From Paeniglutamicibacter sp. Y32M11 (GTDB lineage: Bacteria > Actinomycetota > Actinomycetes > Actinomycetales > Micrococcaceae), in contig NZ_CP079107.1 in NCBI RefSeq assembly GCF_019285735.1, positions 3,534,001 to 3,598,000 of the forward strand: a stretch of 64,000 bases of DNA, written 5' to 3'. Below the pieces are notes generated by a model that saw only the letters and a program-made list of their open reading frames with translations, did no database searches and had not been told where the DNA came from. Shown here in pieces: positions 19,672-38,715 of the stretch. The first letter of the stretch is position 1. Each line of letters starts with the position of its first letter. A program made the translations under genes and the position numbers.

Positions 19672-20742
19672 ATGACCATGGGCTTGAATTTTTCTCATGA
19701 AACACTGGCCCAACGGGTGCTCTTTGGTACGGGTTTGGCCGTCGAGCATCTCGCCGCCGAGGTCAGCCGGCTCGGGGCATCGCGGCTTATGGTGATCGCT
19801 GGGCATCGTGATTCCGACACCGTCACTGCTCTTACCCGGGCGCTGCCGGTGGCACTGCGGTATTCCGAGATCATCCAACATGTGCCGCTCGAGAGCGCCG
19901 AACGCGCGCGCACCGCGGCCCGAGAGAACAGGGTTGATCTGTTGGTGTGTTTCGGTGGAGGCTCGGCCGTCGGTCTGGCCAAGGCCATCGCTCTGGAAAC
20001 CGCAACGCCCATCATCGCCATTCCCACCACGTACGCGGGGTCCGAAGCCACCAATGTTTGGGGCTTGACCGAAGCCGGCCGCAAAACGACGGGGATTGAT
20101 GCCCGGGTGCTGCCGGTGACGGTGATTTACGATGCTGCACTGAGCCGCACGCTGCCCGTGGAACTCTCCGTCACTTCCGGGCTGAACGCCATGGCTCACT
20201 GCATCGATTCACTGTGGGGACCACATGCCGATCCGATCAATGCGACGCTGGCCGCCGAGGGAATTCGCGCCCTGGCCGCTGGCTTGTCTGCCATTATCTC
20301 CGATCCACCAGGCCTCGATGGCCGCGAGTTAACCCTCTATGGGGCCTACCTAGCTGCCGTTTCCTTTGCCTCGGCAGGATCCGGAATGCACCACAAGATC
20401 TGCCATGTCCTCGGCGGCAGCTACAACATGCCGCACGCGCAGACGCACGCCATCCTATTGCCCCACGTTTTGGCCTTCAACGCACCCTTCGCACCGCGGG
20501 CCGCCGAGCGGATTGCTGCGGCCCTTGGCTCACCGGATGCCGTGACGGGGCTGAACGCCTTGCGCAAGCTCCTGGGTGCCCCTTCGGCGTTGAAGGACTA
20601 CGGCTTTGAACTGGCGAACATCCCCGAGGCCGTCTCGATGATCTTGCCCGTCATCCCCGCCAACAACCCCAGAGCTGTCACGGCTCAAAATCTCACCGAA
20701 CTGCTCACCGCCGCCTTCCACGGCAGCACGCCCGGCAGCTGA
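19672..20742 (+). CDS. Maleylacetate reductase (iron-containing alcohol dehydrogenase family)
   Basis: This enzyme reduces maleylacetate to 3-oxoadipate with NAD(P)H. It is the last step of the hydroxyquinol and chlorocatechol branches before central metabolism. The 356-residue protein has the nucleotide loop CFGGGSAVGLAKAIA, the family signature IPTTYAGSEATNVWG, and histidines in AMAHCIDSLWGPHADP and HHKICHVLGGSYNMPHAQ. The short length and MPHAQTHAI pattern match maleylacetate reductases rather than general alcohol dehydrogenases. It is divergent from mntR and has no ring-cleavage gene beside it, so it must serve a pathway encoded elsewhere. The best local candidate is the aromatic-type cluster from 24.5 kb. 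ATG 19672 has GGAGA upstream. Confidence 0.88.
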   Translation: MTMGLNFSHETLAQRVLFGTGLAVEHLAAEVSRLGASRLMVIAGHRDSDTVTALTRALPVALRYSEIIQHVPLESAERARTAARENRVDLLVCFGGGSAVGLAKAIALETATPIIAIPTTYAGSEATNVWGLTEAGRKTTGIDARVLPVTVIYDAALSRTLPVELSVTSGLNAMAHCIDSLWGPHADPINATLAAEGIRALAAGLSAIISDPPGLDGRELTLYGAYLAAVSFASAGSGMHHKICHVLGGSYNMPHAQTHAILLPHVLAFNAPFAPRAAERIAAALGSPDAVTGLNALRKLLGAPSALKDYGFELANIPEAVSMILPVIPANNPRAVTAQNLTELLTAAFHGSTPGS

Positions 20743-20782
20743 AAATCGGCGCCCGCTAAACGTCGCCAGCGGGGTCGAGCGG

Positions 20783-21421
20783 TTAGATCCACCCCTGTTC
20801 TCGCGCCAGGTGTGCTGCCTCAATCCGGTTGGCCGCCCCGGTCTTTCCGATCGCGTTGGACAGGTGGTTGCGCACCGTTCCAACGCTCAGGAACATCCCC
20901 GCAGCTATCTTGGCCACCGGTGTCCCCGCTTGGGCGTGGGACAGTACCTCACGTTCGCGTTCGGTGAGTGGGTTGGCACCGTCTCCCAACGAATGGGCCG
21001 TTACCAACGGGTCAAATACGCGTCCGCCGGCAAACACGCTCCGTACCGCGGCGGCAAGTTCGGCAGAGGGAGTGTCCTTCACCAGAAAGCCGCTGGCCCC
21101 GGCCTCAAAGGCGGCCCGCAGATAACCCGGACGATCAAAAGTTGTCACCATCAATACCTTGCAGTCCGGAAGTTGGGAGCGCAATCTGCTGGCCGCTTCC
21201 AGCCCGTTCACGTTGGGCATCTGGATATCCAACAGGGCCACCTGCACGCCGTGTTCTTCGGCGAGCGCCACCACGTTACGTCCATCCCCGGCCTGAGCCA
21301 CCACCTCGATGTCTGTTTCCAGGTTCAGCAGGGCGGCAAGTGCCCCGCGGACCAGTGCTTGGTCATCGGCCAACAGCACGCGGATGGGTCCGTTACCCTC
21401 GTGATTTTTGGGGCTCACCAT
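20783..21421 (-). CDS. Response regulator, NarL/LuxR family (DesR-like)
   Basis: This 212-residue protein has an N-terminal receiver domain with acidic pocket LLADDQ, phospho-acceptor aspartate in VALLDIQMPN and the conserved lysine in FLVKDTPS. A C-terminal LuxR-type helix-turn-helix follows (NPLTEREREVLSHAQAG ... GTVRNHLSNAIGKTGA). Its ATG overlaps the end of the kinase gene by 7 bp. It is the last gene of an ABC ATPase / permease / kinase / regulator operon and probably controls that operon, as in Bacillus yvfRS-yvfTU-like systems. Confidence 0.93.
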   Translation of the reverse strand: MVSPKNHEGNGPIRVLLADDQALVRGALAALLNLETDIEVVAQAGDGRNVVALAEEHGVQVALLDIQMPNVNGLEAASRLRSQLPDCKVLMVTTFDRPGYLRAAFEAGASGFLVKDTPSAELAAAVRSVFAGGRVFDPLVTAHSLGDGANPLTEREREVLSHAQAGTPVAKIAAGMFLSVGTVRNHLSNAIGKTGAANRIEAAHLAREQGWI

Positions 21422-22506
21422 GAGAGCTCCACCTTGGTTCCACCGTGTGCGGAGTCCCCGATCTCAAAGGCCGCCCCGCTGAGGCGGGCTCGTTCACGCA
21501 TGCCCCGGATGCCATGGCCCTCCTTGGAGCCGGCCAGTGAATCTCCGTCGTCCTCAATGCTCAGTGTGTGTTCGCGGATGCAGATCCACGCGGTGGTGGC
21601 ATGGGCGTGGCGCAATACGTTGGTCACCGCCTCCCGCAGGATCCAGGACAGGGCGGTGGAGCGCGCCGCGTCGAGCAGTTGCGGATTGCCGATGAGCACC
21701 GTGGAGATCCCCGCATCATCGAGGGCCGAGCGAATCGCCGGCAATTCATCGGCAAGGGTCGTGCGGCGCAATCCTTCCACCGTGGCCCGGATCGAATCCA
21801 TGGCCTCGTGCGTGAGCACCTGGATCTGCTGCAGCTCGGCGCGGGCGGAGTCAATATCGGTATCCAAGAGGCGTTCGGCCAGTTGGGCCTTGAGTCCCAC
21901 CGCGGTGAGCGAATGCCCCAGTGCGTCGTGCACGTCTCTGGCCATCCGCTCCTGTTCGGCGAGTACCGCGAAGTCCAGTCGCAGATCATCCGCCACGATG
22001 CTCCTGCGGATCAGCACGGTGTTGACCGCGTTGACGACCATCAGCACCACCAATAATCCAAGCAAAAAGACGTAGTCACTCAGTGGTCCCGACGATATGG
22101 CGATCGCCAGGGAAATGGTGAGAACCACGGCGTTGACGATCCACATGCTTCGTACCGAGAGCAGATAGGCGGCAAAGCTGATGAGAAACGGCCCGAAGCT
22201 GATGATGTCCGCCCCGAGGAGCGGGATGGTGGCCCCCACGACCAGCAACAGCAATAAGAAGGGGATCCAGGCACGTCCGAACCCGCTGGCGCTGACTCCA
22301 AGTTCCGAGCTGTAGGTATAGAAGGACCTCAGATAGATCACGGCAAAGGCGAGGATCAGTCCGTAGCCGGCCATCCGCGCCGGCACCGGAAGCGTGGATT
22401 GGGCGATTCTCAGGACGGGGAAAGTCAAAAAGACAACCCACACCGCCGCCAGCAGCCACCCGTAACGCGACCAGAAGGAATGCGTTTGTGCCTGGTTCGA
22501 GCTCAC
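21415..22506 (-). CDS. Sensor histidine kinase, DesK-like (HisKA_3)
   Basis: This membrane kinase of about 363 residues has several N-terminal transmembrane segments, a short linker and a HisKA_3 dimerisation helix MARDVHDALGHSLTAVGLKAQLAE. The phospho-histidine is in the first HDALGH. A compact HATPase follows, ending in GHGIRGMRERARLSG and GGTKVELSW. The GTG at 22506 overlaps the permease stop codon (GTGA), so I prefer it to an ATG further upstream that would lie inside the permease gene. Lacking an extracellular domain, it probably senses membrane state or the transporter itself. It pairs with the downstream DesR-like regulator. Confidence 0.9.
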   Translation of the reverse strand: MSSNQAQTHSFWSRYGWLLAAVWVVFLTFPVLRIAQSTLPVPARMAGYGLILAFAVIYLRSFYTYSSELGVSASGFGRAWIPFLLLLLVVGATIPLLGADIISFGPFLISFAAYLLSVRSMWIVNAVVLTISLAIAISSGPLSDYVFLLGLLVVLMVVNAVNTVLIRRSIVADDLRLDFAVLAEQERMARDVHDALGHSLTAVGLKAQLAERLLDTDIDSARAELQQIQVLTHEAMDSIRATVEGLRRTTLADELPAIRSALDDAGISTVLIGNPQLLDAARSTALSWILREAVTNVLRHAHATTAWICIREHTLSIEDDGDSLAGSKEGHGIRGMRERARLSGAAFEIGDSAHGGTKVELSW

Positions 22507-24217: not shown

Positions 24218-24551
24218 GGATCAAGTCTTCATCAGTCCGGGTGCCGGTAGAAGTGCAAATTGTCATGGTTCACCGCCATTGAGCTTCGGTACGATGCCCT
24301 TTCCCGCGCATGGCCTTCGCCGTGTGCGCGGGCGGCTTGTTGCGCCGCCCGCGCACAGCATCGATCCGCCGTTCCGGGGCTAAAGACGTGCCTGCACTGG
24401 AACGCAGCAGCGTCAACAAAGTCTGCGCAGTATTGTGGGCCCCGGCAGCAGGGACGTAGCCCAGGTGCCGGATCCAAGAGCTTTGCCACCGTATCCAGTT
24501 CACCGGTGAGCCTGGTGGGACAGCGCAGCACCTCGACTTCGCGAACTTAAA
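24218..24551 (-). terminator. Gap with a strong hairpin after the esterase gene
   Basis: This 334-bp stretch separates the esterase gene from the ABC operon; both are leftward. A perfect hairpin, TGTGCGCGGGCGGC and GCCGCCCGCGCACA with a 7-nt loop, lies at 24323-24357 and likely ends the monooxygenase-esterase transcript. The part from 24218 to about 24320 should hold the ABC operon promoter. Short open frames on both strands here show no recognisable motif and I do not call them genes. Confidence 0.65.
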
Positions 24552-25928: not shown

Positions 25929-27917
25929 CTAGCGCACGTCCTGGTACTGGCTGCGGTCCACCGCGCGGGTGATGTTCCAGTAATCGAGCATCGGGTAGGG
26001 CCAGATCTGTGAGACCCGACCCTGCTTGTTTTTGTACCAGGTCTTCACCTCCGGGTGACCCCAAGCCTTGGCCCGGTTGGCCTCATCAAGATCTGCCACA
26101 AAGGACTCCAGTACCTCTGGCTGCAGGTCCAGTGCCTTGAGATCCTCACTGAGCACAATGCGCAGAGCATCAAGGATGTAGTTCAGTCCGTATTCGATCA
26201 TCGAGAAGAGCGAACCGTTCACCACGTGTCCGGTATTTGGCCCCGAGACCAGGAACAGGTTGGGGAAGCCCGGCACGGTAATGCCGGCATACGCGGTGGC
26301 GTTGCCTGCCCACTGCTCGTGCAGATCCTTGCCTTCGCGCCCGGTAATCTTCAGCGGCTCCAAGAATTCGGACGCGGTGAAGCCGGTGGCGTAGATGATG
26401 ACGTCGAGCTCGTGCAGCGTGCCCTCGCCATCGATGATGCCGTCGGCGCACATTTCTGTCATCCCGGAGGTGATCAGCGAGGTCTGCGGCTTTTTCAGGC
26501 TTGCTGACCAGACGCCGTTGTCGCGGAGCATGCGCTTACCGCCGACCACGTAGTCGGGGGTGACCTTGGCCAAAAGATCGGGGCGGTCGGCATACTGCTT
26601 CTTCAGCATGGCTTCGAGTTCGCTGCGCACCTTGGCGTTGGTGGCCGAGACGGACCCCGGAGTGGTCCAGTTCGGATCTCCCGCGGTGGTGTGCTGGCGT
26701 CCCTCGACACCCAACCAGTGCTGCCAGAAGCGCAGCCACTGCCCGTACTGTGGCAGGTGCTCGGCCAGCCACAGCACCGATTCGGGCATGTCCTCGTAGT
26801 AGAAGGGGGTGGGCAGCATCCATGGCGAGGAACGCTGGAAGACCTTAAGCTCTGCGACCTCATCAACGATGGCCGGGACGATTTGGTAGGCCGAGGCACC
26901 GGATCCGATGACCGCCACCCGCTTGCCGCGCAAATCGATGGCCGGGTCCCACTGAGCCGAGTGCACCTGGATGCCAGCAAATTTTTCGCGGCCCGGGGTG
27001 TCGGTGAACTTGGGGCGATCGAGCTGGCCCACCGCCGTGAGCACCGCGTTGAAATGACGCACCTCGGGAGCTGCACCGTCGATGCTCATTTCTACTGCCC
27101 AGAGTCCGGTGCTCTCATTCCAGGTAGCGCTGAGAACTTCGGCACCGAGCTGAACATTGGAGCTGATGCCGGCGCGGGCTGCCACCTCGCGGGTGTAGGA
27201 GAGGATCTCCGGTCCCTCGGAGAACTGCTGCGGCCAGTTATCGCGTTGGGCGAAGGAGAAGGAGTAGGCATAGTTGGGGGTGTCCAGCCGGACGCCCGGG
27301 TAGGTGTTCTTCCACCAGGTACCGCCAACTTCGTGGCCCTTTTCAAAGACGGTGTAGTCGTACCCGGCCTGCTTCAGGCGGTATGCGGCGGCCATGCCGG
27401 CAACGCCGGAGCCGATCACAGCGACGGTGAATTCGCGGGTGGGTGCCAGTTCCTTGGCATGGTGGCGCGGGGTGCCATTGTGCTGGGGCACCAGGGCCAT
27501 GTCGTGCATGAGCATCGGGTGGTATTCGCGGGTGGCGCCGTTAGTCATCCAGTCAAGAATGTCCGCAGCCTGTTCATCGGATAGAGGGGAGACGCTGGTC
27601 AGCTTTTCGTCGCGAACGCGGCGCAGGGCGTTGAAGGCGAGCTCGCGGGCGCGTTCCTGCGCAGCTGCGTCCAATCCACCGTGAGGTGTGCCCACGGTGT
27701 CAACCGGAGGCTGGGGTGGGCGCAGGTCTTCACGCAACATGGTGTAGTCCCCGGTCACCGCGGCCAGCGCCACCATGAGTGCCGGAAGATCGGTGGTCTG
27801 GATGATGCTGAGCAGTTCGTCGTCGTCCTCGGTAATGGGCGAGTATTGATCTCGCCAATACAGATCGTCGATCTTGGTCTGCGACGGGTCCTGGGTCAGG
27901 GTCTCGGTCATGTTCAC
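25929..27917 (-). CDS. Baeyer-Villiger monooxygenase, 4-hydroxyacetophenone monooxygenase-like
   Basis: This flavoprotein inserts oxygen next to a ketone using FAD, NADPH and O2. The 662-residue protein has a first Rossmann motif GSGVAG (169-174), the type I fingerprint FAGIQVHSAQW (313-323, FxGxxxHxxxW) and a second NADPH motif GSGASA near 340. An N-terminal extension of about 160 residues precedes the FAD motif. That extension is characteristic of the 4-hydroxyacetophenone monooxygenase subgroup (about 640 residues) rather than cyclohexanone monooxygenases (about 540). It is cotranscribed with the esterase and divergent from a GntR regulator. Preferred substrate is an aryl ketone by inference. 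Confidence 0.9.
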   Translation of the reverse strand: MNMTETLTQDPSQTKIDDLYWRDQYSPITEDDDELLSIIQTTDLPALMVALAAVTGDYTMLREDLRPPQPPVDTVGTPHGGLDAAAQERARELAFNALRRVRDEKLTSVSPLSDEQAADILDWMTNGATREYHPMLMHDMALVPQHNGTPRHHAKELAPTREFTVAVIGSGVAGMAAAYRLKQAGYDYTVFEKGHEVGGTWWKNTYPGVRLDTPNYAYSFSFAQRDNWPQQFSEGPEILSYTREVAARAGISSNVQLGAEVLSATWNESTGLWAVEMSIDGAAPEVRHFNAVLTAVGQLDRPKFTDTPGREKFAGIQVHSAQWDPAIDLRGKRVAVIGSGASAYQIVPAIVDEVAELKVFQRSSPWMLPTPFYYEDMPESVLWLAEHLPQYGQWLRFWQHWLGVEGRQHTTAGDPNWTTPGSVSATNAKVRSELEAMLKKQYADRPDLLAKVTPDYVVGGKRMLRDNGVWSASLKKPQTSLITSGMTEMCADGIIDGEGTLHELDVIIYATGFTASEFLEPLKITGREGKDLHEQWAGNATAYAGITVPGFPNLFLVSGPNTGHVVNGSLFSMIEYGLNYILDALRIVLSEDLKALDLQPEVLESFVADLDEANRAKAWGHPEVKTWYKNKQGRVSQIWPYPMLDYWNITRAVDRSQYQDVR

Positions 27918-28001: not shown

Positions 28002-28046
28002 GTCAACGTAAAATGTATTCTTTGTAGCGTTTGGTATGATTCCCCT

Positions 28047-28757
28047 ATGGCTAAGATGACCGATTCAGAGACCCTGTCCAAACACATCAGGGACGCCCTA
28101 CGGAATGACATCCTTGAGGGCAGATGGGCTCCGGGCGCGAAACTACAGCTCACCCGGCTCTCTGAGCACTACGACACTTCAAGCACCGTGATCCGCGAGG
28201 CCCTCACGCGCCTGGTGGGCGATCAACTGGTCACGCTGCGCCCCAACCGCGGATTCTTTGTTCCCGAGCTGTCGCTGGCAGAACTCAGCGACATCACCGA
28301 GATGCGTTGCGTCAACGAATCACTGGCCGTCGCCTTGGCCGTCGAGCGCGGCTCGATCGCGTGGGAAAGTGAACTCATCGCTGCCCACCACACCCTTGAA
28401 CGCACCGAGCGACGTTCGGTGGAAAATCCCGAAGTGCACACCGAGGCGTGGAATCACGCCCACCAGTTATTCCACGCAAAACTTGTGGAGGCCTGCGAGG
28501 TTCCCCTGCTGCTCAATCTGACCTGCATCCTCTCCGATTTAACTCAGCTCTACGGCCGCTGGGCCGGCACCGCAACTCGCGATGTAAAACGCGACGTTGA
28601 TAAGGAACACCGCGATATCTTGGATGCTGCACTGGCCCGGAACGCCACGCTGACCGGCACCCTGCTGCGCAATCACTACGAAACCACGCTTAATGCCATC
28701 AAGAAGGCAGGCGAGGTGGGTATGGCCAGCACGCTGACTGGCACGTCCGCACCTTAA
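28047..28757 (+). CDS. GntR-family transcriptional regulator (FCD subfamily)
   Basis: The 236-residue protein has an N-terminal winged helix (LSKHIRDALRNDILEGRWAPGAKL ... HYDTSSTVIREALTRLVGDQLVTLRPNRGFFV) and an all-helical FCD ligand domain. Its metal/ligand histidines lie around HQLFHAKLVEACE and RDILDAALARNATLTGTLLRNHYE. It is divergent from the Baeyer-Villiger monooxygenase-esterase operon, which it most likely represses until a pathway acid binds. A hairpin terminator follows. Confidence 0.92.
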   Translation: MAKMTDSETLSKHIRDALRNDILEGRWAPGAKLQLTRLSEHYDTSSTVIREALTRLVGDQLVTLRPNRGFFVPELSLAELSDITEMRCVNESLAVALAVERGSIAWESELIAAHHTLERTERRSVENPEVHTEAWNHAHQLFHAKLVEACEVPLLLNLTCILSDLTQLYGRWAGTATRDVKRDVDKEHRDILDAALARNATLTGTLLRNHYETTLNAIKKAGEVGMASTLTGTSAP

Positions 28758-28834: not shown

Positions 28835-30415
28835 TTAGCCGAGGTTAACCACTTCGGGAACCGAAGAGCGACCCTCCCGGTAACGCTCGGGCCAGACGCC
28901 CTGTTTACCCGGGGCAATAATTCCCGCCGGGTCCAAGGCGTCCTTGATCTTTTCCTGCAATCGACGCAGTGAGTGGTTGTTGAAGTCGAAGCCGTCGGCG
29001 ATGCGATCCATGTAGTCCACGTGGCTGCGGTACGGAGCATATCCCTTGGCGCGGGCCACATCTAGCAGCTCCGCGTACAGGGCACGCGCCCTGCCCAGCA
29101 TCTCCTCATTTCCACGCTCGAAGAAGATCATCGTTACGTGAACCATATGCCGGGGGTACAGGTGGTACCCGATGTACAAATCAAAACCGTACTTGGCGTA
29201 CAGCCGCTTGGCTTCCTGGTAGAAGGTGTAGACCTCTTCACCGCGTGCGGGAATGATTGGTGCCGCATCGATGTGTCCACCGTCCTGCGCCGCCCACCCC
29301 ACCGTTGACAGCGGCTTCAGCGTGGGAACCCCGGCCATCTGCGTGCGGTCCAAAGCTGCAATGTCCTCATGCTGCAGGGCCAATCCTTCGGTGCCCGAGT
29401 AGAAGCGGGCGTCCACCCGAGCCCCGGGGATCACCGCGATGCGCTCGTTAATGATCTCGAGGCGGCGCTCGCACAATCCGCGGTCCCCGTAGAGCGCAAA
29501 CTTGGCGTTCCACTGGCCCAGCCCAAATTCCTGGCGCATTTCTTCCAGCCGCCAGTCCGGGATTGATCCCTCGCCCTGCCAGAAGGAGGCGCGATTCCCG
29601 CGCATGGTCGCCGCGCGCACCACGTTGCCACACAGCGCGTTGTTCTGGATGATTTCCTCGCGACGCAACGTGGTGAGGATGTCGATCAGTTGCGGCAGAT
29701 CTTCCTCGTTAGCCACGGCAATGTCGCCGTTGACGTAAGTGTTGGGAGCCGGCTGCAGCCAGAGCCCCACCTGCGTGACAACTCCAAGGTTCGACTGGGT
29801 AAAGAGCCCATCTAGGGTAGGACCAAATCCGCCCTGGAATAGCGGTCCCAAATCGGTGCCCTCCATGGCGCCCATACCGGTGCGCACCAGCTCACCGTCG
29901 GGAAGCACCACATCCATTCCACAGAGCTGCTTCACATGATCCCCATGCGGAGTCATCCCGTAGCCACGGTCGAGCATATTGCCCATCACCGAACCCCAGC
30001 CCAGCGCCGGAACACTGATCCATAGATTGAGTCCACGTTCCTTGATGTACTCAAAGAGATCAAAGAAGGTGACTCCGGGTTCCACGATGGCATAACAGAG
30101 CCTGTCATCAACGGCAATGATCCGATTCATGCGGCTCAAATCCAAGGCAACCATGCCCGAATCACGCGGTTCGGGTCCCCCGTAACCCAGGTTCTTACCG
30201 CAGGAGAAGACCCACAAGGGGACCTCAAGCTCGGTGGCCAGCTTCACCAGGCCCTGCACCTCCGCGGTGTTGGCGGGACGCACACCTGGCCACGGATTAC
30301 GCCCCGGGTTCAGCGGGTAGGGGTCAATATAGCCCGCAGAGCTGTCCAATGACACCACGTTGTCCCCACCGACGATGTTCTCGGCCCTACGCAGGAATTC
30401 CTCGCGACGATCCAT
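28835..30415 (-). CDS. FAD-linked oxidase, vanillyl-alcohol oxidase / 4-cresol dehydrogenase family
   Basis: Members of this family oxidise the side chain of 4-alkylphenols (4-cresol, 4-ethylphenol, eugenol, vanillyl alcohol) through a quinone methide. The 526-residue protein has the FAD loop WVFSCGKNLGYGGPEP (68-83) and MGNMLDRGYGMTPHGDH, whose aspartate matches the catalytic Asp of vanillyl-alcohol and eugenol oxidases. The C-terminal GYAPYRSHV supplies the expected Tyr-Arg pair. The usual covalent-FAD histidine segment appears as PRHMVHVT rather than a MHH motif, so covalent attachment is uncertain. It is divergent from a LysR regulator. It could feed the aryl-ketone route of the adjacent monooxygenase. 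Confidence 0.88.
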   Translation of the reverse strand: MDRREEFLRRAENIVGGDNVVSLDSSAGYIDPYPLNPGRNPWPGVRPANTAEVQGLVKLATELEVPLWVFSCGKNLGYGGPEPRDSGMVALDLSRMNRIIAVDDRLCYAIVEPGVTFFDLFEYIKERGLNLWISVPALGWGSVMGNMLDRGYGMTPHGDHVKQLCGMDVVLPDGELVRTGMGAMEGTDLGPLFQGGFGPTLDGLFTQSNLGVVTQVGLWLQPAPNTYVNGDIAVANEEDLPQLIDILTTLRREEIIQNNALCGNVVRAATMRGNRASFWQGEGSIPDWRLEEMRQEFGLGQWNAKFALYGDRGLCERRLEIINERIAVIPGARVDARFYSGTEGLALQHEDIAALDRTQMAGVPTLKPLSTVGWAAQDGGHIDAAPIIPARGEEVYTFYQEAKRLYAKYGFDLYIGYHLYPRHMVHVTMIFFERGNEEMLGRARALYAELLDVARAKGYAPYRSHVDYMDRIADGFDFNNHSLRRLQEKIKDALDPAGIIAPGKQGVWPERYREGRSSVPEVVNLG

Positions 30416-30512: not shown

Positions 30513-31454
30513 ATGAACCTTGAATCGCATCCCCGACTCACACTGCGCCAACTATGGCACTTTGTTGTCGCCGCCGAGGCCGGGACCATGGCAGAGGCTG
30601 CGCGACGTCTGCACATGGCACCGTCGGCGATATCGATGTCGATTGCCGAACTCGAACGGATCATCGGCTCCGACCTAGCGATCAAACGCCGTGCCAAGGG
30701 ACTAACGCTGACCGCCACCGGACGAACCGTCCTGGGCCAAGCCCGAGTCCTGCTGGAGTTGGCCGGAGAACTCGAAACCCTGGGTCAAGGAACCCGCGCC
30801 TCGTTGCGTGGACCGCTGACCGTGGGCTGTTTTATGAGCCTTGGCCCCACCATCATTCCCACTATGCTTCGCGCCTTCGCCGAGCAATGCCCGCACGTGG
30901 AAGTCGACTTCGTTGAGGGTTACCACGCGGACCTGCAGCAGGCCTTGCTGGATGGCTCGATCGATGCGGCATTCCTCTATGGAGCCGAGATCTCCCCCAG
31001 CCTCTCCAGTGCACCGGTGACAGCGTCCGAGCTCTACGTCCTGGTCTCCAACGAGCATGCCCTCAGTGGGGCCGACTCCGTGTCGCTCATCGACATTGCC
31101 GGCGAACCTCTGGTGCTCTTTGACGCTGACCCGATTTCCCGGCGCATCCTGGGTTTGTTCGAGGAAGCGGGAATCACCCCCACCGTGCGGCACCGCTCGC
31201 GCAGTTACGCCACGGTGAGGTCCCTGGTGGGTTCGGGACGTGGAGTCGCACTCCTGTTCCAGCAACCCGAGCTCGAGGCTCCCTATCAGGAGCTTCGAGT
31301 GGTGCTCAAGCGTTTGGATGCCCCGGGGCTGGCCGGTGCCGCTGCGGTGCCGGTGTCCGTGGCGTGGCCGCGCAGCACCCGACTCAACGCCCGTGCCCAG
31401 GCTTGGGTCGAGGTTGCATCGGAACTGTTTGCCCACGCCACTCCCCCTGCCTAA
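30513..31454 (+). CDS. LysR-family transcriptional regulator
   Basis: The 313-residue protein has an N-terminal LysR helix-turn-helix (LRQLWHFVVAAEAGTMAEAARRLHMAPSAISMSIAELERIIGSDL) and a two-lobed periplasmic-binding-like effector domain from about residue 95. It is divergent from the VAO-type oxidase gene, which is its likely target. It converges with the luciferase-like monooxygenase gene so closely that the two stop codons share the four bases CTAA. Confidence 0.94.
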   Translation: MNLESHPRLTLRQLWHFVVAAEAGTMAEAARRLHMAPSAISMSIAELERIIGSDLAIKRRAKGLTLTATGRTVLGQARVLLELAGELETLGQGTRASLRGPLTVGCFMSLGPTIIPTMLRAFAEQCPHVEVDFVEGYHADLQQALLDGSIDAAFLYGAEISPSLSSAPVTASELYVLVSNEHALSGADSVSLIDIAGEPLVLFDADPISRRILGLFEEAGITPTVRHRSRSYATVRSLVGSGRGVALLFQQPELEAPYQELRVVLKRLDAPGLAGAAAVPVSVAWPRSTRLNARAQAWVEVASELFAHATPPA

Positions 31455-32785
31455 GCCAGGGTATTCGAGCGGATCGAGGACGGACGAGCCAGACCGAAGT
31501 TATCCCGCAGCGTGCTGCCCTCGTACTCGGTGCGGAAGTAGCCACGCTCCTGCAGCTCGGGAACGAGCTTGTCGCAGATCAGTTCAAACCCGCCGGGGTT
31601 AAACGGGGCGTTGAGGTTGAAGCCGTCGCAGGCCTTGGCATCAAACCAGTCAATCATCCGGTCGGCAACCGCCGAGGCGGTTCCGGCCATCCACTGATGT
31701 CCGGTGGAGCGGGCCAGATCAACGATCAGCTCGCGCAGGCTCATGCCCTGGTCTACCGACTTGCGGCGGTAGATCTGGTAGCGCGAGCCCAATGCCGGAT
31801 CATCGGAGAACCAGTCTTCGGGGATGGAATCGTTGAGGTCAAGACGGGTCAAATCCATCTTCAAATCAGCACCGACCTGCACACGACCGTTATCCATGTG
31901 GATGTTGTTGGCTAGGTGTTCGGCCAGCTCGTCGGCCTCGGCCTGGGTATCACCCAAGATCGGCAGGATGCCGGGGATGATCTTGATGTCATCGGGGTTG
32001 CGACCCTTGGCCGCTGCCATGGCCTTGAACTTGGCGTAGAACTCGACCGAGGGTTCCTTCAACGGCTGCGCCGTATAGATGCCATCGGCCACCGAGGAGC
32101 CCAGCTCCATGCCGGGTCCCGAGGATCCTGCCTGCACCATGACCGGGCGGCCCTGCGGGCTGCGTGGCATATTGATGGGTCCATCAACGGAGAAGAATTC
32201 GCCGCGGTGGTTGATCGGGTGGATCTTGGACGGATCAACGTACCAGCCACTGGCCTTGTCGTTGGTGACGGCATCGTCTTCCCACGAATCCCACAGCTGC
32301 TGAACGACATCAACAAATTCGGTGGCTCGGCGGTAACGCGTCGCCGGATCCGGGGCCTCGGTAATGCCGTAGTTTTGGAAGCCGTCGGAGGAGGTAACGA
32401 TGTTCCATCCAGCGCGGCCACCTGACATGTGGTCAAGCCCGGCCATCTGCCGGGCCAGGTTATACGGCTCGCTGAAGGAAGTAGAAACGGTACCGATCAG
32501 GCCAATATTCTTGGTACGAGCTGCCAATGCTGCCAGCACCGTCATCGGTTCGTAGAAGCCATTCATCTTGATGTCGCCGCGCATCACGGTATTGGCGTGG
32601 ACAATGTCGCCGAAGAAGATGGCGTCGAGCTTGGCGTCTTCTGCCATACGGGCCAGGTCGTAGACAAATTCTAAGTTGGCGAGCTCTTCGGAGCGGCTAC
32701 CATCCATGCGCCACGAGTCCTTGTGGTATCCGGCCGGCAACATGAAGGTCGTCAGGACCATGTGCTTGGGGTTCTTCGGTGCCAT
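31451..32785 (-). CDS. LLM-class FMNH2-dependent monooxygenase (NtaA/SnaA/DszA subgroup)
   Basis: This is a two-component flavin monooxygenase of about 444 residues with a luciferase-like barrel. Landmarks are KHMVLTTFMLPAGYHKDSWR at the start, FFGDIVH, the GLIGTVSTSFSEPYNLARQ flavin strand, SGGRAGWNIVTS and YGITEAPDPATRYRR. The NtaA/SnaA/DszA/EmoA subgroup cleaves C-N or C-S bonds or oxidises small heterocycles using FMNH2 from a separate reductase. ATG 32785 has AAAGGAGCC upstream, excluding the longer in-frame start. A candidate reductase partner is the fusion protein at 37567. Substrate unknown. Confidence 0.9.
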   Translation of the reverse strand: MAPKNPKHMVLTTFMLPAGYHKDSWRMDGSRSEELANLEFVYDLARMAEDAKLDAIFFGDIVHANTVMRGDIKMNGFYEPMTVLAALAARTKNIGLIGTVSTSFSEPYNLARQMAGLDHMSGGRAGWNIVTSSDGFQNYGITEAPDPATRYRRATEFVDVVQQLWDSWEDDAVTNDKASGWYVDPSKIHPINHRGEFFSVDGPINMPRSPQGRPVMVQAGSSGPGMELGSSVADGIYTAQPLKEPSVEFYAKFKAMAAAKGRNPDDIKIIPGILPILGDTQAEADELAEHLANNIHMDNGRVQVGADLKMDLTRLDLNDSIPEDWFSDDPALGSRYQIYRRKSVDQGMSLRELIVDLARSTGHQWMAGTASAVADRMIDWFDAKACDGFNLNAPFNPGGFELICDKLVPELQERGYFRTEYEGSTLRDNFGLARPSSIRSNTLA

Positions 32786-32902
32786 GAGATCAGGCTCCTT
32801 TCGCTCGATGCCCAGCGCAGCGCAGCGCCGGGGCAAATTCTTCTGTGGATGCTTACGTACATCGTGCCAATGTCTTGAAAGATCGTAAATAGAGAACTTT
32901 CA

Positions 32903-32915
32903 GAACATTATGTTC
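32903..32915. promoter_or_regulatory. 13-bp palindrome upstream of the LLM monooxygenase gene
   Basis: GAACAT-T-ATGTTC is a perfect dyad about 118 bp before the monooxygenase ATG, in an AT-rich stretch that stands out from the surrounding GC-rich DNA. It is a plausible operator. Confidence 0.45.
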
Positions 32916-32956
32916 AATATTTCTGATGTTGTGGAGAGATCATGACGGTTCGCCCG

Positions 32957-33000
32957 GCGGCGCATTGCCTCGGAAGATCTCGCGCCGTCGCCGGAGGCAA
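32957..33000 (-). terminator. Possible hairpin after the MHS transporter gene
   Basis: TTGCCTC and GAGGCAA arms enclose a GC-rich loop that can pair alternatively with GGCGGCGC/GCGCCG. It starts 12 bp beyond the transporter stop codon on the - strand. Confidence 0.45.
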
Positions 33001-33011
33001 CACGGGTACAC

Positions 33012-34367
33012 CTAGTGGTGCTGGAGCTCCTGCGCGGAAGATTCCTTCACTTGCTGGGATTGCGCACCCTCGGGGCTCATCCGCACGGCGATCAGTCCCA
33101 CGATGAGGACGGCGGCCCAGAAGACACCGACCCACACGAAGCCGCCAGCTAGGGTCAAGGCGGTGGCGATCATCGGAGTGAAGCCAGCGCCCAAGGTGGC
33201 GGCACCCTGGTAGGAAAGGGATGAGCCGGTATAGCGAACATCGGCGGGGAATAGCTCGGAGATGTAGGCACCAATCGGGCCGGCCAGGATGCCTTGAATA
33301 AGGCCATTGCCCACGAGCACCGCCAGCATGAAGCCCCACGCAGTTCCGTTATGCATCAGATAAAGGGCGGGGAAGGCCCACAAAACGCCGAGCACACCAC
33401 CAAGGGTCAGTACCGAACGGCGCCCAATGCGGTCCGATAGTCGCGCGGCCCAGAAACAGACAACAATCGTGACGACGGCGGCCAGGCCCTTGATATTCAA
33501 CACTGTCGAGCGCTCAACGCCCTCCCCCACGGCCACCGAAACACCCCAGGAGGTCAAGATGCCCTGCATCGTGTAGAAACCCAACGACGCCACGAGGGTG
33601 ATAACCACGGTGCGCGGATGGTTACGCAGCACGCGCATGATCGGGGTGCGGCGTTCCTTCTCGACCTCTGCGGCCTTGGACTCAAGGTCCTTGAACACCG
33701 GAGATTCGGCCACCTTAAGGCGGATCACCATGCCAATAACAATCAAGACGGCAGAGAAGAGGAATGGGATACGCCATCCCCACACCAAGAATTGGTCACC
33801 AGTGAGGGCGGAAACGCCCGAGACCATAAAGGTTGCCAGCAGGCCACCGGCAGGAGCGCCCGCGTTGGCGAATGAGGCCGCAAGCCCCCGCTTGGAGGCG
33901 GGAGCGTGCTCGAGGGCCATCAAGGTGGCCCCGCCCCACTCACCACCGACCGAAATTCCCTGCACCATGCGCAGCAGCACCAATATGATCGGCGCAGCAA
34001 TGCCGATGCTGGCGGTCGTTGGCAATAGGCCAATTGCGATGGTCGCGATGCCCATCATCATCATCGACAGGACCAGCATTCGTTTGCGACCAAGGACATC
34101 ACCGAAGTGGCCAAAGATGATGCCACCCAGAGGGCGGGCTAGATAACCGACGGCGAGCGTACCGAAGGAAGCGAAGAGCGCTACCCCGGGATCGAGGTTG
34201 CCGAAAAAGACCTTGTCGAAGATCAGCGCAGCAGCCGTCGCATAGAGGATGAAGTCGTAGTACTCAATAATGCTGCCCAGAAGGCTGGACCCCAAGATAC
34301 GACGCATGTTCTTGGTGTTCAGTGACTCACTGGCGGCGTCGCCGACCGTGGCTGATGATTTTTTCAT
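33012..34367 (-). CDS. MFS transporter, metabolite:H+ symporter (MHS) family
   Basis: This 451-residue protein has 12 membrane segments. It carries the MHS N-terminal pattern SSLLGSIIEYYDFILYATAAALIF, the loop-2/3 motif GGIIFGHFGDVLGRKRML and the RMVQGISVGGEWGGATLMALEHAP segment. Relatives import shikimate, alpha-ketoglutarate, proline/betaine or aromatic acids. It is divergent from the HpaB-type monooxygenase gene and shares its promoter gap with two similar palindromes, so a catabolic substrate of that operon is the likely cargo. Confidence 0.92.
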   Translation of the reverse strand: MKKSSATVGDAASESLNTKNMRRILGSSLLGSIIEYYDFILYATAAALIFDKVFFGNLDPGVALFASFGTLAVGYLARPLGGIIFGHFGDVLGRKRMLVLSMMMMGIATIAIGLLPTTASIGIAAPIILVLLRMVQGISVGGEWGGATLMALEHAPASKRGLAASFANAGAPAGGLLATFMVSGVSALTGDQFLVWGWRIPFLFSAVLIVIGMVIRLKVAESPVFKDLESKAAEVEKERRTPIMRVLRNHPRTVVITLVASLGFYTMQGILTSWGVSVAVGEGVERSTVLNIKGLAAVVTIVVCFWAARLSDRIGRRSVLTLGGVLGVLWAFPALYLMHNGTAWGFMLAVLVGNGLIQGILAGPIGAYISELFPADVRYTGSSLSYQGAATLGAGFTPMIATALTLAGGFVWVGVFWAAVLIVGLIAVRMSPEGAQSQQVKESSAQELQHH

Positions 34368-34461
34368 GGACTCGCAAACTTCCGTTGAAACCGAAATTGT
34401 GACCTAAGACATGATGACTCACCTCACACCGTCACGTCAATTTTTACGCATTTTTAACGAC

Positions 34462-34581
34462 AGAATATTTTATTCTTCGACCAACCCTCTGCTACCCCTG
34501 GGAATTTCTCCAGAAAGTTGAGGCCCTCGGTATTGCGCAAATCACGTTCAGGTATATAAACTTACACACAGAATATATTCT
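34462..34581. promoter_or_regulatory. Pair of GAATA-type dyads in the MHS/HpaB divergent promoter
   Basis: AGAATA-TTT-TATTCT at 34462-34476 and the perfect palindrome AGAATATATTCT at 34570-34581 lie 106 bp apart, one near each of the two divergent promoters. The shared half-site AGAATA suggests one regulator acting on both genes. The core GAATATATTC also occurs in the palindrome at 2911-2946. Confidence 0.5.
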
Positions 34582-34621
34582 TGCCTCGATGGGGCAAGTC
34601 CAGTCAGCTAAGGAGAATCCC

Positions 34622-36124
34622 GTGAGCGCACGCAACGGAGCAGCATACAAAGAAGGCCTGAAGGACTCCCGCGAGGTCTGGCTTGGCGATCAGCGCATCG
34701 ACGTCACCGAACACCCCGCATTCAAGGGCTCGATCAACGGCATGGCCGCATACTTCGACTACCAGCACAAGTACGCTGATGACTGCCTCATGACGGACGC
34801 CGCCACCGGCGAGGAACATAACGTCTCGCTGCTACGTCCACACAATTCGGAGGACATCGCCCGCCGACACCGCGCTTTTGACCGCCTGGCCCGCTACTCC
34901 AACGGCATGCTCGGCCGCACCCCGGACTATGTCAACGTGGTGCTCGCCGGCCATGCCTCACGCAAGGATATCTTCGACCGTTCCGGGGACCCGGTCTACT
35001 TCGAACGGCTCGAGGCTTACTGGAAGCACGTACAGAAGCACGACCTCGCACTGACCCACACCATCGTGCACGCGGCCATCGACAAGTCCGTCGGCGAGCT
35101 GCAGGGCATCAATGAGGAACTAACCCTGCGCGTTGTTGAACGCACCGAAGCCGGTCTGATTGTTCGCGGCGCCAAGATGCTGGCGACATTGGGCCCGATC
35201 GCCGATGAACTCTACGTCTACCCGGCCGTGCCGATCCAGAAGGGCTACGAAGAATATGCCCTCTCCTTCGCCATCCCGGTGGCCACCAAGGGTGTCGTTT
35301 CGGTCTGCCGCGATCACTACGGCGTGGACCAGGAAGTTGTCGACAAACCATTCTCCTCACGCTTTGACGAGCAGGATGCCGTCATCATCTTTGATGACGT
35401 GCTAGTTCCCTGGGACCGGGTATTCATCGATGGTCAGCTGGATGTGTACAACGCACTGAACGGTGGCACCGCCACCGGTAACACCCAGCAGCAGACCGCC
35501 ATCCGCGCCTCGGTCAAGCTCGAATTCGCCTACGACCTGTGCACCCAGATGGCCAAGGTCACCGGCACCGATTCCAAGCCCGACACCGCCACCATGCTCG
35601 GTGAAATCTACTCCTACCTGCGCATCGCTCGCTCGGTGATCCACTCCGCCGAGGTCAACGCCTCCGATTGGGGCGGCGGAGCCTTCTTCTGCCACGACGA
35701 CATCTCCGCGCTACGCACAATGATGCCCCTGTGGATGGCTCGCGTGAACGACATCATCAAGTCCATGGGCTCACACAATCTGCTCGCCACCCCCACCGCC
35801 GCTGCCTTCGATGAACCGCGCCTTGGTCCACTGCTGCGCAAGTACTTGCCCGGCGCCGGAGGCGTCTCCCCGGAGGACCGCGCCAAGATCTTCCGCACCG
35901 CCTGGGACTTTGCCGGTTCTGCTTTGGGCAGCCGAAACGAACTCTACGAACGCTTCTACCTCGGTTCCATTGGACGCGCTCGCGCCCTGGACCACAAAAA
36001 GGCCCAGGCCAAGGGTGTTGGTGGAGCCTTCGATGCGATGTTCGCCGAGCTGGGCATTTACCCCGTGATGAACGCACCCGACGATCTGAATCTGACGGCC
36101 GTCACCGTCCCCACCCGCGCCTAA
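34622..36124 (+). CDS. FADH2-dependent aromatic monooxygenase, HpaB/chlorophenol monooxygenase family
   Basis: This 500-residue oxygenase component hydroxylates phenols ortho or para to the ring hydroxyl with FADH2 from a partner reductase. Family landmarks are SLLRPHNSEDIARRHRAFDRLARYSNGMLGRTPDYVN, the IFDDVLVPWDRVFI flavin loop, and FRTAWDFAGSALGSRNELYERFYLG near the C-terminus. The GTG at 34622 has AAGGAG 6 nt upstream and is preferred over an upstream ATG. An HpaB-type enzyme converts chlorophenol or hydroquinone to hydroxyquinol in Arthrobacter chlorophenolicus, a comparable role. It is cotranscribed with the MmgE/PrpD and flavin-reductase genes. Confidence 0.91.
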   Translation: MSARNGAAYKEGLKDSREVWLGDQRIDVTEHPAFKGSINGMAAYFDYQHKYADDCLMTDAATGEEHNVSLLRPHNSEDIARRHRAFDRLARYSNGMLGRTPDYVNVVLAGHASRKDIFDRSGDPVYFERLEAYWKHVQKHDLALTHTIVHAAIDKSVGELQGINEELTLRVVERTEAGLIVRGAKMLATLGPIADELYVYPAVPIQKGYEEYALSFAIPVATKGVVSVCRDHYGVDQEVVDKPFSSRFDEQDAVIIFDDVLVPWDRVFIDGQLDVYNALNGGTATGNTQQQTAIRASVKLEFAYDLCTQMAKVTGTDSKPDTATMLGEIYSYLRIARSVIHSAEVNASDWGGGAFFCHDDISALRTMMPLWMARVNDIIKSMGSHNLLATPTAAAFDEPRLGPLLRKYLPGAGGVSPEDRAKIFRTAWDFAGSALGSRNELYERFYLGSIGRARALDHKKAQAKGVGGAFDAMFAELGIYPVMNAPDDLNLTAVTVPTRA

Positions 36125-36139
36125 AAGGACACTCCCGCC

Positions 36140-37555
36140 ATGGAAACCGTAATTCCCCTCGTCGACAGGCTGGTTGCCCACGCCTTGGGGATCACCTTCG
36201 AGGATCTAGATCCGCAGACGGTGATCCGGGTGAAAACCCGGCTCCTTGATACCCTCGGCGCGATGGCGGCCGGACACGGATCCCAGGATGCACCCGCGGT
36301 GCTTCGAGTGGCCGCGGCCTGGGGATCCGGCGATGACGCCGGCGTTCCCGGGACCAGCTTGCGGTTACCTGCCGCCGCCGCGGCCTTCGCCAACTCCGTC
36401 TTGGCCAGGTCCTTTGACTTCGAACCGGTGGAAGCCGACGGACCGGAAGGCACTCGGGTGGCGGCACATATCTCCGGTACCACCGTCCCGGTGGCCCTGG
36501 CACTTGCCGAACTCACCGGGGCCAGCGGGGAAGAACTGCTCACGGCGCTGGCCATCGGAGATGACATCACCGCACGTCTGGCGGTAGCCAGCGGCTTTGA
36601 CGTTTATTCGGGAACGGATAACACCGGAACAGTAAATGCCCTGGGTGCCACGTTGCTGGCAGCAAGGATGTTGGGACTTGACGCGCCAACCGCCAAACAC
36701 GCGCTGGGTATTGCGGCGAATCAACTCGGCGGCACCGTGGCCAACATCTTTGATGCGGCAAGTGCGTTCAAACTACCGATAGCCCTTGCCGCCCACACGG
36801 CCATCACCTCCGCCCAGCTGGCAGCGGCCGGGTTTACCGGAGCGAATGATCCGCTGGAAGGAAAGCACGGGTACTTCCAGATGTACTGCACCGATGCAAA
36901 GCCGGCACTAGCCGGCGTGGGTTTGGGTCGGGAGTTCTACGGAGATACAACCATCAAGCCGTGGTCCAGTTGCCGTGCCGCACACCCCTCCCTCGAGGCC
37001 TGTATACGTCTGGTCACCGAGGAGGGTGTTGAGGTGGAGCAGCTCCAGGACGTGAGCATTCACATCACCGAGCGGACGTTGAACGGATTTGTTGGAGCTC
37101 GCTTTGATCCGGCAGAACGCCGAGTAGTAGCCGGGCTTTTTTCGATTCACTTCACCGCGGCAGCCGGATTGCTTCACGGCACCGTTCGTCCCGAGCACCT
37201 CACACCCGAGGCGATGGGAGATGAGCGCATCGCCGCATTGCTCGAGCGCATTACCCTGATCGGTTCCCTTCCCAATAGTCAGCGCCTCACCGCAGAAGCA
37301 ACCGCCACCTTGAAGGACGGGAGCACCCGACACGTGCGGGTTCAATATCCTGCCGGCGACTTCGCTTCAACTCCACTGAAAAACAGTGTCATTGAAGAGA
37401 AATTCCGGCTCAATGTGGCCTTCGGACTCCCGGAGCTTGTCGAGCGCGCACCACGACTGATCGAGCTGGTTTCCGGCCTTGAGTTGGCCGAGTCGCTCGA
37501 AGGACTCTTTGGATCCTTAAACCCCACCGCCATGATCACCACCCCGATTGCCTAG
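36140..37555 (+). CDS. MmgE/PrpD family protein
   Basis: This 471-residue protein belongs to the family of 2-methylcitrate dehydratase (PrpD), cis-aconitate decarboxylase and iminodisuccinate epimerase. Visible family parts are LVAHALGITFEDLDPQTVIRVK at the start, the ARSFDFEPVEAD region, GDDITARLAVAS and the KPWSSCRAAHPSLEA active-site segment. It starts 15 bp after the monooxygenase stop codon, so it acts in the same pathway, possibly on a dicarboxylate or amino-dicarboxylate formed after ring opening. The exact reaction cannot be read from the sequence. Confidence 0.88.
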   Translation: METVIPLVDRLVAHALGITFEDLDPQTVIRVKTRLLDTLGAMAAGHGSQDAPAVLRVAAAWGSGDDAGVPGTSLRLPAAAAAFANSVLARSFDFEPVEADGPEGTRVAAHISGTTVPVALALAELTGASGEELLTALAIGDDITARLAVASGFDVYSGTDNTGTVNALGATLLAARMLGLDAPTAKHALGIAANQLGGTVANIFDAASAFKLPIALAAHTAITSAQLAAAGFTGANDPLEGKHGYFQMYCTDAKPALAGVGLGREFYGDTTIKPWSSCRAAHPSLEACIRLVTEEGVEVEQLQDVSIHITERTLNGFVGARFDPAERRVVAGLFSIHFTAAAGLLHGTVRPEHLTPEAMGDERIAALLERITLIGSLPNSQRLTAEATATLKDGSTRHVRVQYPAGDFASTPLKNSVIEEKFRLNVAFGLPELVERAPRLIELVSGLELAESLEGLFGSLNPTAMITTPIA

Positions 37556-37566
37556 GAGAAGTTACG

Positions 37567-38715
37567 ATGAACACGCAAAACACGCCAGCCGAGACCACCG
37601 TCGTCGACGCCGGAATCTTCCGCAACGTGGTGGGGCATTTCGCCTCGGGCGTCACGGTCATCACCACCGTGGTGGACGGGGTCCTCTATGGAACCACGGC
37701 TTCGGCAGTTTCTTCGCTGTCGATGGAACCACCCATGATGCTCGCCTGCCTCAACCGATCCTCATCAACTCATGACCGTGTGGTCTCCGCAGGGTACTTT
37801 GGTATCAACATCCTGGCCGACGACCAGAGTGATCTGGCCTTCCATTTCGGGCGCAAGGGCGAGGACAAATTCGCTTCGGTTCCTCACACCATCTCCCCCG
37901 AGGGCATCCCGTTGATTGATGGTGCGCTGGCTACCATCGTGTGCAAGGTGGATGAAACGGCCACCGGCGGCACCCACACCGTTTTCTTGGGCTTGGCCAC
38001 CAGCGCCGAGGCCCACAACCGCCAGCCACTGGCCTACTACCGCGGCTCAATGGGCAAGCTGGAACCGGTGAAGGAACTTTCTGCCTACACCGCGACCCGC
38101 AACTGGGTACTGTTGCGCAAGAGCCCGCTGGGTTCGGATCTCGACATTGAAGCCATCGCCGAGGCCACTCGATCGGAGGCAGCTCATGTGGGCAACGCTC
38201 TGGTGAAGCTGGAAAGTGAGCACTTGGTCTTCCGCACCCCAAGCGGCGTCTTCCAGCCCAGCCCAATTACTGCCGAGCTCACCGATTCTGCCTACGACTC
38301 CCGGGCCATCATCGAGTCGGGCATTATCGCCTCGCACTTGGATAAACTCACCGACGAGGTCATTGCCGAACTGCGCCGCATTACCGTCGAGCTGGGCAGG
38401 TTGCGCGATGAATCTGAGGCCGTTCTGGATGATTTCCTGGCCCTGAACGTCGCCTACCACGATGCTCTGGTGGGCGTTGCTGGCTCATCTCAGCTCACCG
38501 ACGCATTCCGCCGACTGGGCATCGGAACGGTGTGGCGTCAGGCCCTGACCCGCGAGGAATGGTCCCGCAATCTGGACCACACTCACGTGGCAGCACTGAC
38601 CGAGGCCCTGGCTTCGGGTGACGCCACGGCCGCGCAGGACGCGCTCACCGCCCACACCGCGTTTGGTAAATCCCTAGCCCGCGAAGTGGTTCTGCGCCAC
38701 GGCGGCAGCGTCTAA
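37567..38715 (+). CDS. Flavin reductase fused to a GntR/FCD-type regulatory domain
   Basis: The 382-residue protein joins two modules. Residues about 15-170 are an HpaC/flavin-reductase-like split barrel (FRNVVGHFASGVTVITT, TTASAVSSLSMEPPMMLACLNRSSSTHD, FGINILADDQ). This would supply reduced flavin to the HpaB-type enzyme two genes upstream. Residues about 185-375 contain a divergent winged-helix stretch and an FCD-like helical domain with DFLALNVAYHDALVGVAGS and HTHVAALTEALASGD. It starts 11 bp after the MmgE/PrpD stop codon. The fusion could couple flavin reduction to ligand sensing or to regulation of the operon. Such an architecture is unusual, though related fusions are known in actinobacteria. 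Confidence 0.85.
   Translation: MNTQNTPAETTVVDAGIFRNVVGHFASGVTVITTVVDGVLYGTTASAVSSLSMEPPMMLACLNRSSSTHDRVVSAGYFGINILADDQSDLAFHFGRKGEDKFASVPHTISPEGIPLIDGALATIVCKVDETATGGTHTVFLGLATSAEAHNRQPLAYYRGSMGKLEPVKELSAYTATRNWVLLRKSPLGSDLDIEAIAEATRSEAAHVGNALVKLESEHLVFRTPSGVFQPSPITAELTDSAYDSRAIIESGIIASHLDKLTDEVIAELRRITVELGRLRDESEAVLDDFLALNVAYHDALVGVAGSSQLTDAFRRLGIGTVWRQALTREEWSRNLDHTHVAALTEALASGDATAAQDALTAHTAFGKSLAREVVLRHGGSV

Follow-up and report, generated by a model that had tools for sequence, protein, structure and literature searches.

What joins a set of scattered oxygenase genes, and where is the ring that they would act on opened? The question is raised by a 64,000-nucleotide stretch of the genome of Paeniglutamicibacter sp. 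Y32M11 (G000:C1:3534001-3598000, in a 4.17-Mb single-contig genome), hereafter called the window, whose own positions are used below unless contig coordinates are given. Paeniglutamicibacter terrestris is a very close relative (HpaB 99% identical). The window encodes a maleylacetate reductase, a carboxylesterase, a Baeyer-Villiger monooxygenase (BVMO), a VAO-type oxidase, an HpaB-type hydroxylase with a flavin reductase, and regulators of the GntR and LysR types. All of these had been named in the original prediction, which arranged the enzymes as a route from 4-alkylphenols through hydroxyquinol and maleylacetate to 3-oxoadipate. The core of that grouping (BVMO, esterase, HpaB and often VAO) stands, but its hydroxyquinol/maleylacetate tail does not. 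With a probability of about 0.6, the core belongs to one catabolic regulon for a para-hydroxyaryl compound of the alkylphenol, hydroxyaryl ketone or diaryl type, ending in meta cleavage by a catechol 2,3-dioxygenase-like extradiol enzyme (C23O) encoded elsewhere in the genome.

A conserved gene block

The oxygenase component of the HpaB-type flavin-dependent phenol hydroxylase (34589-36124, plus strand) heads an operon in which a MmgE/PrpD-family gene (PrpD; 36140-37555, plus strand) follows after 15 bases and the flavin reductase gene (37567-38715, plus strand) after a further 11 bases. Orthologues of HpaB are known from 24 loci in as many genome records searched, of which 21 are of Micrococcaceae type (76-99% identity) and three belong to the Frankia group (47%). 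Within 10 kb of these HpaB genes, in counts that are affected by short loci (L025 ends just short of HpaB), the BVMO and the esterase occur together in 20 of the 24 loci, PrpD in 21, the flavin reductase in 20 and the VAO in 13; maleylacetate reductase occurs in none. HpaB, BVMO, esterase, PrpD and the flavin reductase with its fused GntR part are a conserved Micrococcaceae block, to which VAO, an LLM flavin monooxygenase and an MFS transporter are often added, and the linkage of BVMO, esterase and HpaB proposed earlier is borne out.

In the window, the BVMO (25929-27917, minus strand), with an N-terminal extension of about 160 residues and the motif FAGIQVHSAQWD, is followed immediately by the adjacent carboxylesterase gene (PF00135; 24552-25928, minus strand). 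A GntR gene (28047-28757, plus strand) diverges from the BVMO, and a LysR gene (30513-31454, plus strand) from the VAO-type 4-phenol oxidase (28835-30415, minus strand; 420 bits to 8s7n). Three genes had been overlooked: PrpD inside the HpaB operon and, between VAO and HpaB, an NtaA/DmoA-family LLM flavin monooxygenase (31451-32836, minus strand; 483.7 bits to TIGR03860, cut-off 279.7) and an MFS metabolite:H+ symporter-like transporter (33012-34367, minus strand). The flavin reductase had been named together with HpaB, but not seen was that its reductase domain (residues ~16-165) is fused to a complete regulator (residues ~166-382) with a GntR-type winged helix-turn-helix (wHTH) and an FCD fold, a fusion that is conserved in the block-carrying relatives.

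In an alternative, Arthrobacter-type layout the same core is surrounded by genes for ABC transporters and zinc alcohol dehydrogenases, for a class-A FAD monooxygenase (FMO) and for a FAH-family protein. On a Novosphingobium humi plasmid (NZ_CP103869.1; L036, 9394-15964), an HpaB 61% identical to that of the window adjoins two VAO-type oxidases (36-41%); the flavin reductase there is short and lacks the GntR part, and FAH-like and, judged by eye, gentisate-dioxygenase-like genes lie further along. Among the literature matches listed, all open-licence papers, no title or abstract beginning describes this gene set.

An extradiol dioxygenase operon that accompanies the block

In agreement with the original prediction, the window yielded no ring-cleavage gene: all five matches of the genome to the intradiol family PF00775 lie outside it, although not every open reading frame was scanned. 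The extradiol gene was found through a Citricoccus locus (L030), in which it sits between HpaB and MFS. In the source genome its orthologue, C23O (G000:C1:3655938-3656861), lies 57.9 kb beyond the window end and heads an operon C23O-FAH-FMO-GntR, the last gene of which encodes a paralogue of the window GntR.

A C23O orthologue is present in all 19 genomes searched whole, namely 18 relatives and the source genome (L017 lay outside the whole-genome search; L025, L026, L034 and L035 outside those for dioxygenase, maleylacetate reductase and C23O; L033 was covered only by those for hydroxyquinol dioxygenase and maleylacetate reductase). A survey of 216 family genomes, which overlap with those searched whole, accepted matches with E up to 1e-120 for HpaB and 1e-100 for the others, weaker relatives counting as absent. 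HpaB was present in 17 of them, and C23O in all 17 as against one of the 199 HpaB-negative genomes (Fisher p 2.5e-24, uncorrected for kinship); within genus g1, with 14 genomes, the 2 that have HpaB are also the 2 that have C23O. It is this operon that tracks the block, not the hydroxyquinol ring cleavage suggested earlier.

In relatives the operon and the block are also contiguous. In L041 and L049, C23O-FAH-FMO-GntR comes directly after BVMO-esterase, both lying on one strand, and C23O adjoins HpaB in L030 and L060 and MFS-LLM-LysR-VAO in L055, L056 and L057. Only one of the surveyed genomes, G191, has C23O but no HpaB. There C23O-FMO-FAH-GntR lies near a BVMO of 50% identity; the 35 kb examined contain no VAO or PrpD match of at least 38% identity, the level below which matches were not counted in the comparison of C23O loci. 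Since G191 keeps BVMO and C23O-FMO-FAH without HpaB, the path from BVMO to C23O, FMO and FAH is likely the core, and HpaB, PrpD, VAO and LLM would serve peripheral steps. In the same G191 locus (L059:1-11152), NitT/TauT-type ABC transporter-like and HpcH/HpaI-like aldolase genes, identified by eye, adjoin the operon.

Type I (VOC-fold) extradiol dioxygenases bind their metal through two His and one Glu, and the candidate ligands H151, H206/H207 and E257 of C23O are invariant in all 17 rows (conservation rows here and below: tblastn, at least 40% identity and at least 90% coverage). C23O represents an unnamed extradiol subfamily because it scores below the curated NCBIfam cut-offs of the named ones (catechol_2_3, 110.9 bits against 320.2; HpaD, 104.4 against 321.4). 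A second VOC-fold protein with weak matches only is encoded just upstream of the C23O operon in L039 (14351-15349), and genes for a VOC protein, a FAD monooxygenase of MhpA-like type and FAH form a trio that is met again, in other gene contexts, on four distant plasmids from Rhizobium, Herbiconiux, Agrobacterium and Variovorax (L051-L054). A VOC protein of the window itself (13512-14525), encoded between genes for a pyridine-nucleotide oxidoreductase and for a metal ABC transporter of ZnuA type, was rejected as a dioxygenase, being KbpA/Rv0577-like.

A palindrome shared by BVMO and HpaB

The genes had been described as lying in separately regulated units. The GntR and LysR regulators are present, but the separation is not complete, as one palindrome recurs upstream of both BVMO and HpaB. 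The MFS/HpaB gap carries two palindromes, AGAATATTTTATTCT (34462-34476) and, immediately upstream of HpaB, AGAATATATTCT (34570-34581). With up to two mismatches, AGAATATATTCT has four matches in the window against 0.39 expected: two in the MFS/HpaB gap, one at 2923, and one between BVMO and GntR, the operator-like site AAAATGTATTCT (28010-28021, two mismatches).

Upstream matches of at least 9/12 were then counted across genomes, each gene being represented by a single locus in each genome. Such a match precedes HpaB in 23 of 23 cases (expected 1.7), a count that is biased because the pattern was taken from the HpaB site, and BVMO in 14 of 22 (1.0), C23O in 7 of 17 (0.6), LLM in 3 of 17 (0.4) and MFS in 1 of 6 (0.2); none precedes VAO (0/17), PrpD (0/19) or maleylacetate reductase (0/1). 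The source genome has a 9/12 site at both C23O and the second GntR, and G191 has a 10/12 match upstream of FAH. The GntR-type site TNGTNNNACNA was found in none of the seven regions scanned. By these upstream counts, a shared GntR-controlled regulon of the HpaB and BVMO operons is likely, and the inclusion of C23O is suggestive. GntR, presumably acting at these operator-like sites, would probably control the operons of BVMO and HpaB, if not more.

Catalytic residues and the proposed route

The substrate, the order of the steps and the products given here are predictions from sequence. VAO would oxidise the substrate at its benzylic carbon, on the way to a 4-hydroxyaryl ketone. Its Tyr-Tyr-Arg substrate triad (Y78, Y462, R463) and the FAD-linking H381 are kept in 18 of 18 block rows, the roles of these residues being those described for the family (PMC12507022). 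BVMO would then insert oxygen, and the esterase would hydrolyse the ester, releasing a carboxylic acid and a phenol of hydroquinone type. The type I BVMO fingerprint FxGxxxHxxxW is present in 22 of 22 BVMO rows; no chain named HAPMO is among the PDB matches listed for this protein (60 of 68). An aryl ketone as its substrate is likely rather than established, because two BVMO relatives at 46-49% identity occur in other-looking ketone pathways. The order VAO, BVMO, esterase put forward in the original prediction is a sensible one for a para-hydroxyaryl ketone, and the same logic has been proposed for bisphenol F (PMC12507022).

A further hydroxyl would be added by HpaB, fed by the flavin reductase with its built-in effector-type domain, and/or by FMO. 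The key residues R100, Y104 and H142 of Thermus thermophilus HpaB (PMC10816480) correspond to R110, Y114 and H157 here, and this Arg-Tyr-His triad is kept in 28 of 28 rows, including T. thermophilus and three Frankia-group rows. The enzyme is assigned to the HpaB superfamily and not to the 4-hydroxyphenylacetate 3-hydroxylase equivalog because it falls below both curated cut-offs (HpaB-1, 312.5 bits against 480.2; HpaB-2, 202.9 against 885.2). The fused part of the reductase retains H298 and H363, and His residues of this kind bind metal or an effector in FCD domains; judged by eye, the Arg residues that are usual in the recognition helix seem to be missing from it.

C23O would open the ring in the extradiol (meta) fashion, and the FAH-family hydrolase would convert the resulting acylpyruvate-like acid to small acids. 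If the triol is hydroxyquinol, chemical reasoning, with the orcinol pathway as a precedent, predicts extradiol cleavage beside C1, after which FAH would yield pyruvate and malonate semialdehyde. In its fullest form the proposal is tentative: a previously undescribed Micrococcaceae route might lead from a para-hydroxyaryl ketone through BVMO/esterase to a hydroquinone-type phenol, by ring hydroxylation to a triol, and on to the unnamed extradiol dioxygenase and FAH, by-passing 3-oxoadipate, and the fused GntR/FCD part of the reductase might sense the substrate and perhaps bind DNA, thereby linking reductant supply to gene control.

Competing explanations

Several points weigh against a single regulon ending at C23O. 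Some 86 kb separate HpaB from the C23O operon in the source genome, so the evidence of contiguity comes from relatives only. The palindrome at the 9/12 level is absent from 10 of 17 C23O upstream regions, from upstream of GntR in four loci of Sinomonas type, in which that gene stands first in the C23O operon, and from the FAH upstream region of L063; its threshold and pattern were picked after inspection. The genomes surveyed are related, so that shuffles and Fisher tests overstate independence. G191 has no esterase match of at least 38% in the 35 kb fetched. In all 18 block VAO rows Ala137 takes the place of the Asp common to VAO, EUGO and BpfA (Asp152 of BpfA), which assists covalent flavinylation, and FBO, a natural Asp-to-Gly homologue, is FAD-poor and weak (PMC12507022). 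The substrate, finally, is a prediction.

Among the other explanations, a two-ring substrate of bisphenol-F-like or lignan-like structure survives best, though it is unlikely. VAO and BVMO would split the two rings, the hydroquinone passing to HpaB/FMO and C23O and the 4-hydroxybenzoate to the protocatechuate pathway. The VAO-type BpfA does make 4,4'-dihydroxybenzophenone, for which a Baeyer-Villiger reaction and hydrolysis are proposed next (PMC12507022), and two ring hydroxylases of separate descent are encoded in the cluster. Two adjacent PF00775 genes (3883287 and 3883939) would fit protocatechuate 3,4-dioxygenase by their layout. On the other hand, direct evidence for two rings is absent, specificity is not readable from the sequences, and the Asp152 of BpfA is the very residue replaced in the block VAO.

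It is improbable that the pathway runs, as first proposed, from hydroquinone through HpaB to hydroxyquinol, with a distant dioxygenase forming maleylacetate and the window reductase forming 3-oxoadipate. The absence of any ring-cleavage gene from the genome had been named as the finding that would speak against this route, and such a gene exists: hydroxyquinol 1,2-dioxygenase is encoded at 618934-619902 (473.5 bits to 1tmx), at a distance from the block of 2.9 Mb along the contig, or of 1.2 Mb in the opposite direction should the contig be circular. It does not accompany the hydroxylase genes. Its neighbours are an aldo-keto reductase, a sugar ABC transporter and its own maleylacetate reductase, the second of the genome, 44% identical to the window copy. 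This stretch (L009:3924-12903, about 610.9-619.9 kb of G000:C1) also holds an IclR-type regulator gene, the transporter being of ChvE/GguAB type; sugar uptake paired with hydroxyquinol cleavage is an odd combination. A chain of 4-ethylphenol, hydroquinone, trihydroxybenzene and maleylacetate has been reported in Aspergillus fumigatus (PMC3727088).

The window maleylacetate reductase (Fe-ADH; 19672-20742, plus strand) matches 3iv7 (471.3 bits; named Alcohol dehydrogenase IV), then 3jzd, and is closely related to the characterised maleylacetate reductases 3w5s (237.3 bits) and 3hl0 (225.5 bits). In the family survey, hydroxyquinol dioxygenase was found in 26 genomes and maleylacetate reductase in 42, nine of each shared with HpaB; both are thus enriched among HpaB genomes (dioxygenase, 9/17 against 17/199, p 1.7e-5; reductase, 9/17, p 1.3e-3), which also counts against an ending at C23O. 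The other eight of the 17, however, are the same genomes for both enzymes and lack both orthologues. Seven of them, recognised by identical hit coordinates among the genomes searched at E up to 0.001, gave dioxygenase matches of ~32% at best and either no reductase match or Fe-ADH matches of 28-33%; the eighth, G106, was searched at the strict E limit only. Among the relatives searched whole, 6 of 18 have a full-length hydroxyquinol dioxygenase and one more a contig-edge fragment, the Frankia-group genome searched whole has none, and maleylacetate reductases of at least 61% occur in 8 of 19 genomes.

Within the window genus, maleylacetate reductase is present in 10 of 14 genomes and HpaB in 2 of 14, so that 8 of the 12 congeners without HpaB have the reductase. 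For this reason, and because 8 of 17 HpaB genomes lack an orthologue, the window reductase is most likely a bystander outside the regulon. Its surroundings in four congeners (L066-L069) contain nothing else from the window except for one 29% MFS match; among ten chosen neighbours that were scanned, MarR and MFS genes lie beside it in L066 and L069, MFS in L067 and aldo-keto reductase in L068. A cut of at least 50% identity left the window copy alone in its conservation rows, and no conservation is claimed for it. A search for PnpD-type hydroquinone dioxygenase (PF18191) gave no match in 19 genomes, the control being likewise silent everywhere. A catechol 1,2-dioxygenase gene ~6 kb upstream of the window (L008:12481-13335; 469 bits, over the cut-off, and 348 bits to 3hgi) was set aside, as it resembles an ordinary cat gene; with it lie a muconate-cycloisomerase-like gene and a LysR gene (L008:12481-15977).

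That BVMO-esterase serves an alicyclic or terpenoid ketone as a mere neighbour of a phenol pathway of HpaB, VAO and C23O is very improbable: two plasmid BVMO relatives at 46-49%, those whose surroundings were inspected, do lie in alicyclic- or terpenoid-looking operons with genes for P450, SDR, alcohol dehydrogenase or succinate-semialdehyde dehydrogenase, to the detriment of the single regulon, and one locus (L022) holds two BVMO genes, but BVMO-esterase continues into C23O-FAH-FMO in L041 and L049, BVMO and HpaB have the palindrome in common, and BVMO stays with C23O-FMO-FAH in the HpaB-less G191.

Relation to known systems

The single regulon ending at C23O would be a pathway of a familiar type whose elements are newly combined. 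The 4-hydroxyacetophenone pathway of Pseudomonas comprises HAPMO, an esterase and hydroquinone dioxygenase. The block likewise has a BVMO and an esterase leading to a hydroquinone-type phenol, but it adds HpaB, PrpD, LLM and VAO and has the extradiol C23O and FAH instead of a PnpD-type hydroquinone dioxygenase, for which the search had a silent control. That Pseudomonas pathway is mentioned in PMC3727088 and PMC9618137. The acetophenone genes acpAB also combine a BVMO with an esterase, with phenol and acetate as proposed products, although that BVMO is closest to phenylacetone monooxygenase and acpAB is a two-gene cluster (PMC9618137). Like the block VAO, BpfA is a 4-phenol oxidase after which Baeyer-Villiger oxidation and hydrolysis to hydroquinone are proposed; unlike it, BpfA has Asp152 in place of Ala, and the available part of its description reports no downstream cluster (PMC12507022).

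Meta cleavage of the flavonoid A-ring by the ifc/fde system (PMC11069340) was compared by description, not by fdeE/fdeC sequence, and relative to it the block adds BVMO, esterase, HpaB and PrpD. The ipp cluster for 2-isopropylphenol of Rhodococcus sp. D-6 shares a two-component flavin hydroxylase, an extradiol dioxygenase acting on hydroquinone and a FAH-type gene, whereas its oxygenase has the group D acyl-CoA-dehydrogenase fold (HsaA-like) and not that of HpaB, and BVMO and VAO are missing from the cluster as described (PMC12442392). The fused flavin reductase resembles C1/AbHpaC, the reductase of Acinetobacter p-hydroxyphenylacetate hydroxylase, whose C-terminal domain of a transcription-factor family binds the substrate and controls flavin reduction; there the domain is MarR, whereas here it is GntR-type wHTH plus FCD and its gating is putative (PMC10816480).

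Implications

The scattered oxygenases of the window thus become a defined, testable regulon of ~13 genes with a likely ring-cleavage enzyme named, and maleylacetate reductase, probably unrelated, drops out of the pathway. If this is true, soil actinobacteria would degrade phenols of the lignin or bisphenol type by a route so far overlooked, and it would offer enzymology new variants of VAO (Asp to Ala), of extradiol dioxygenases and of reductase-regulator fusions.

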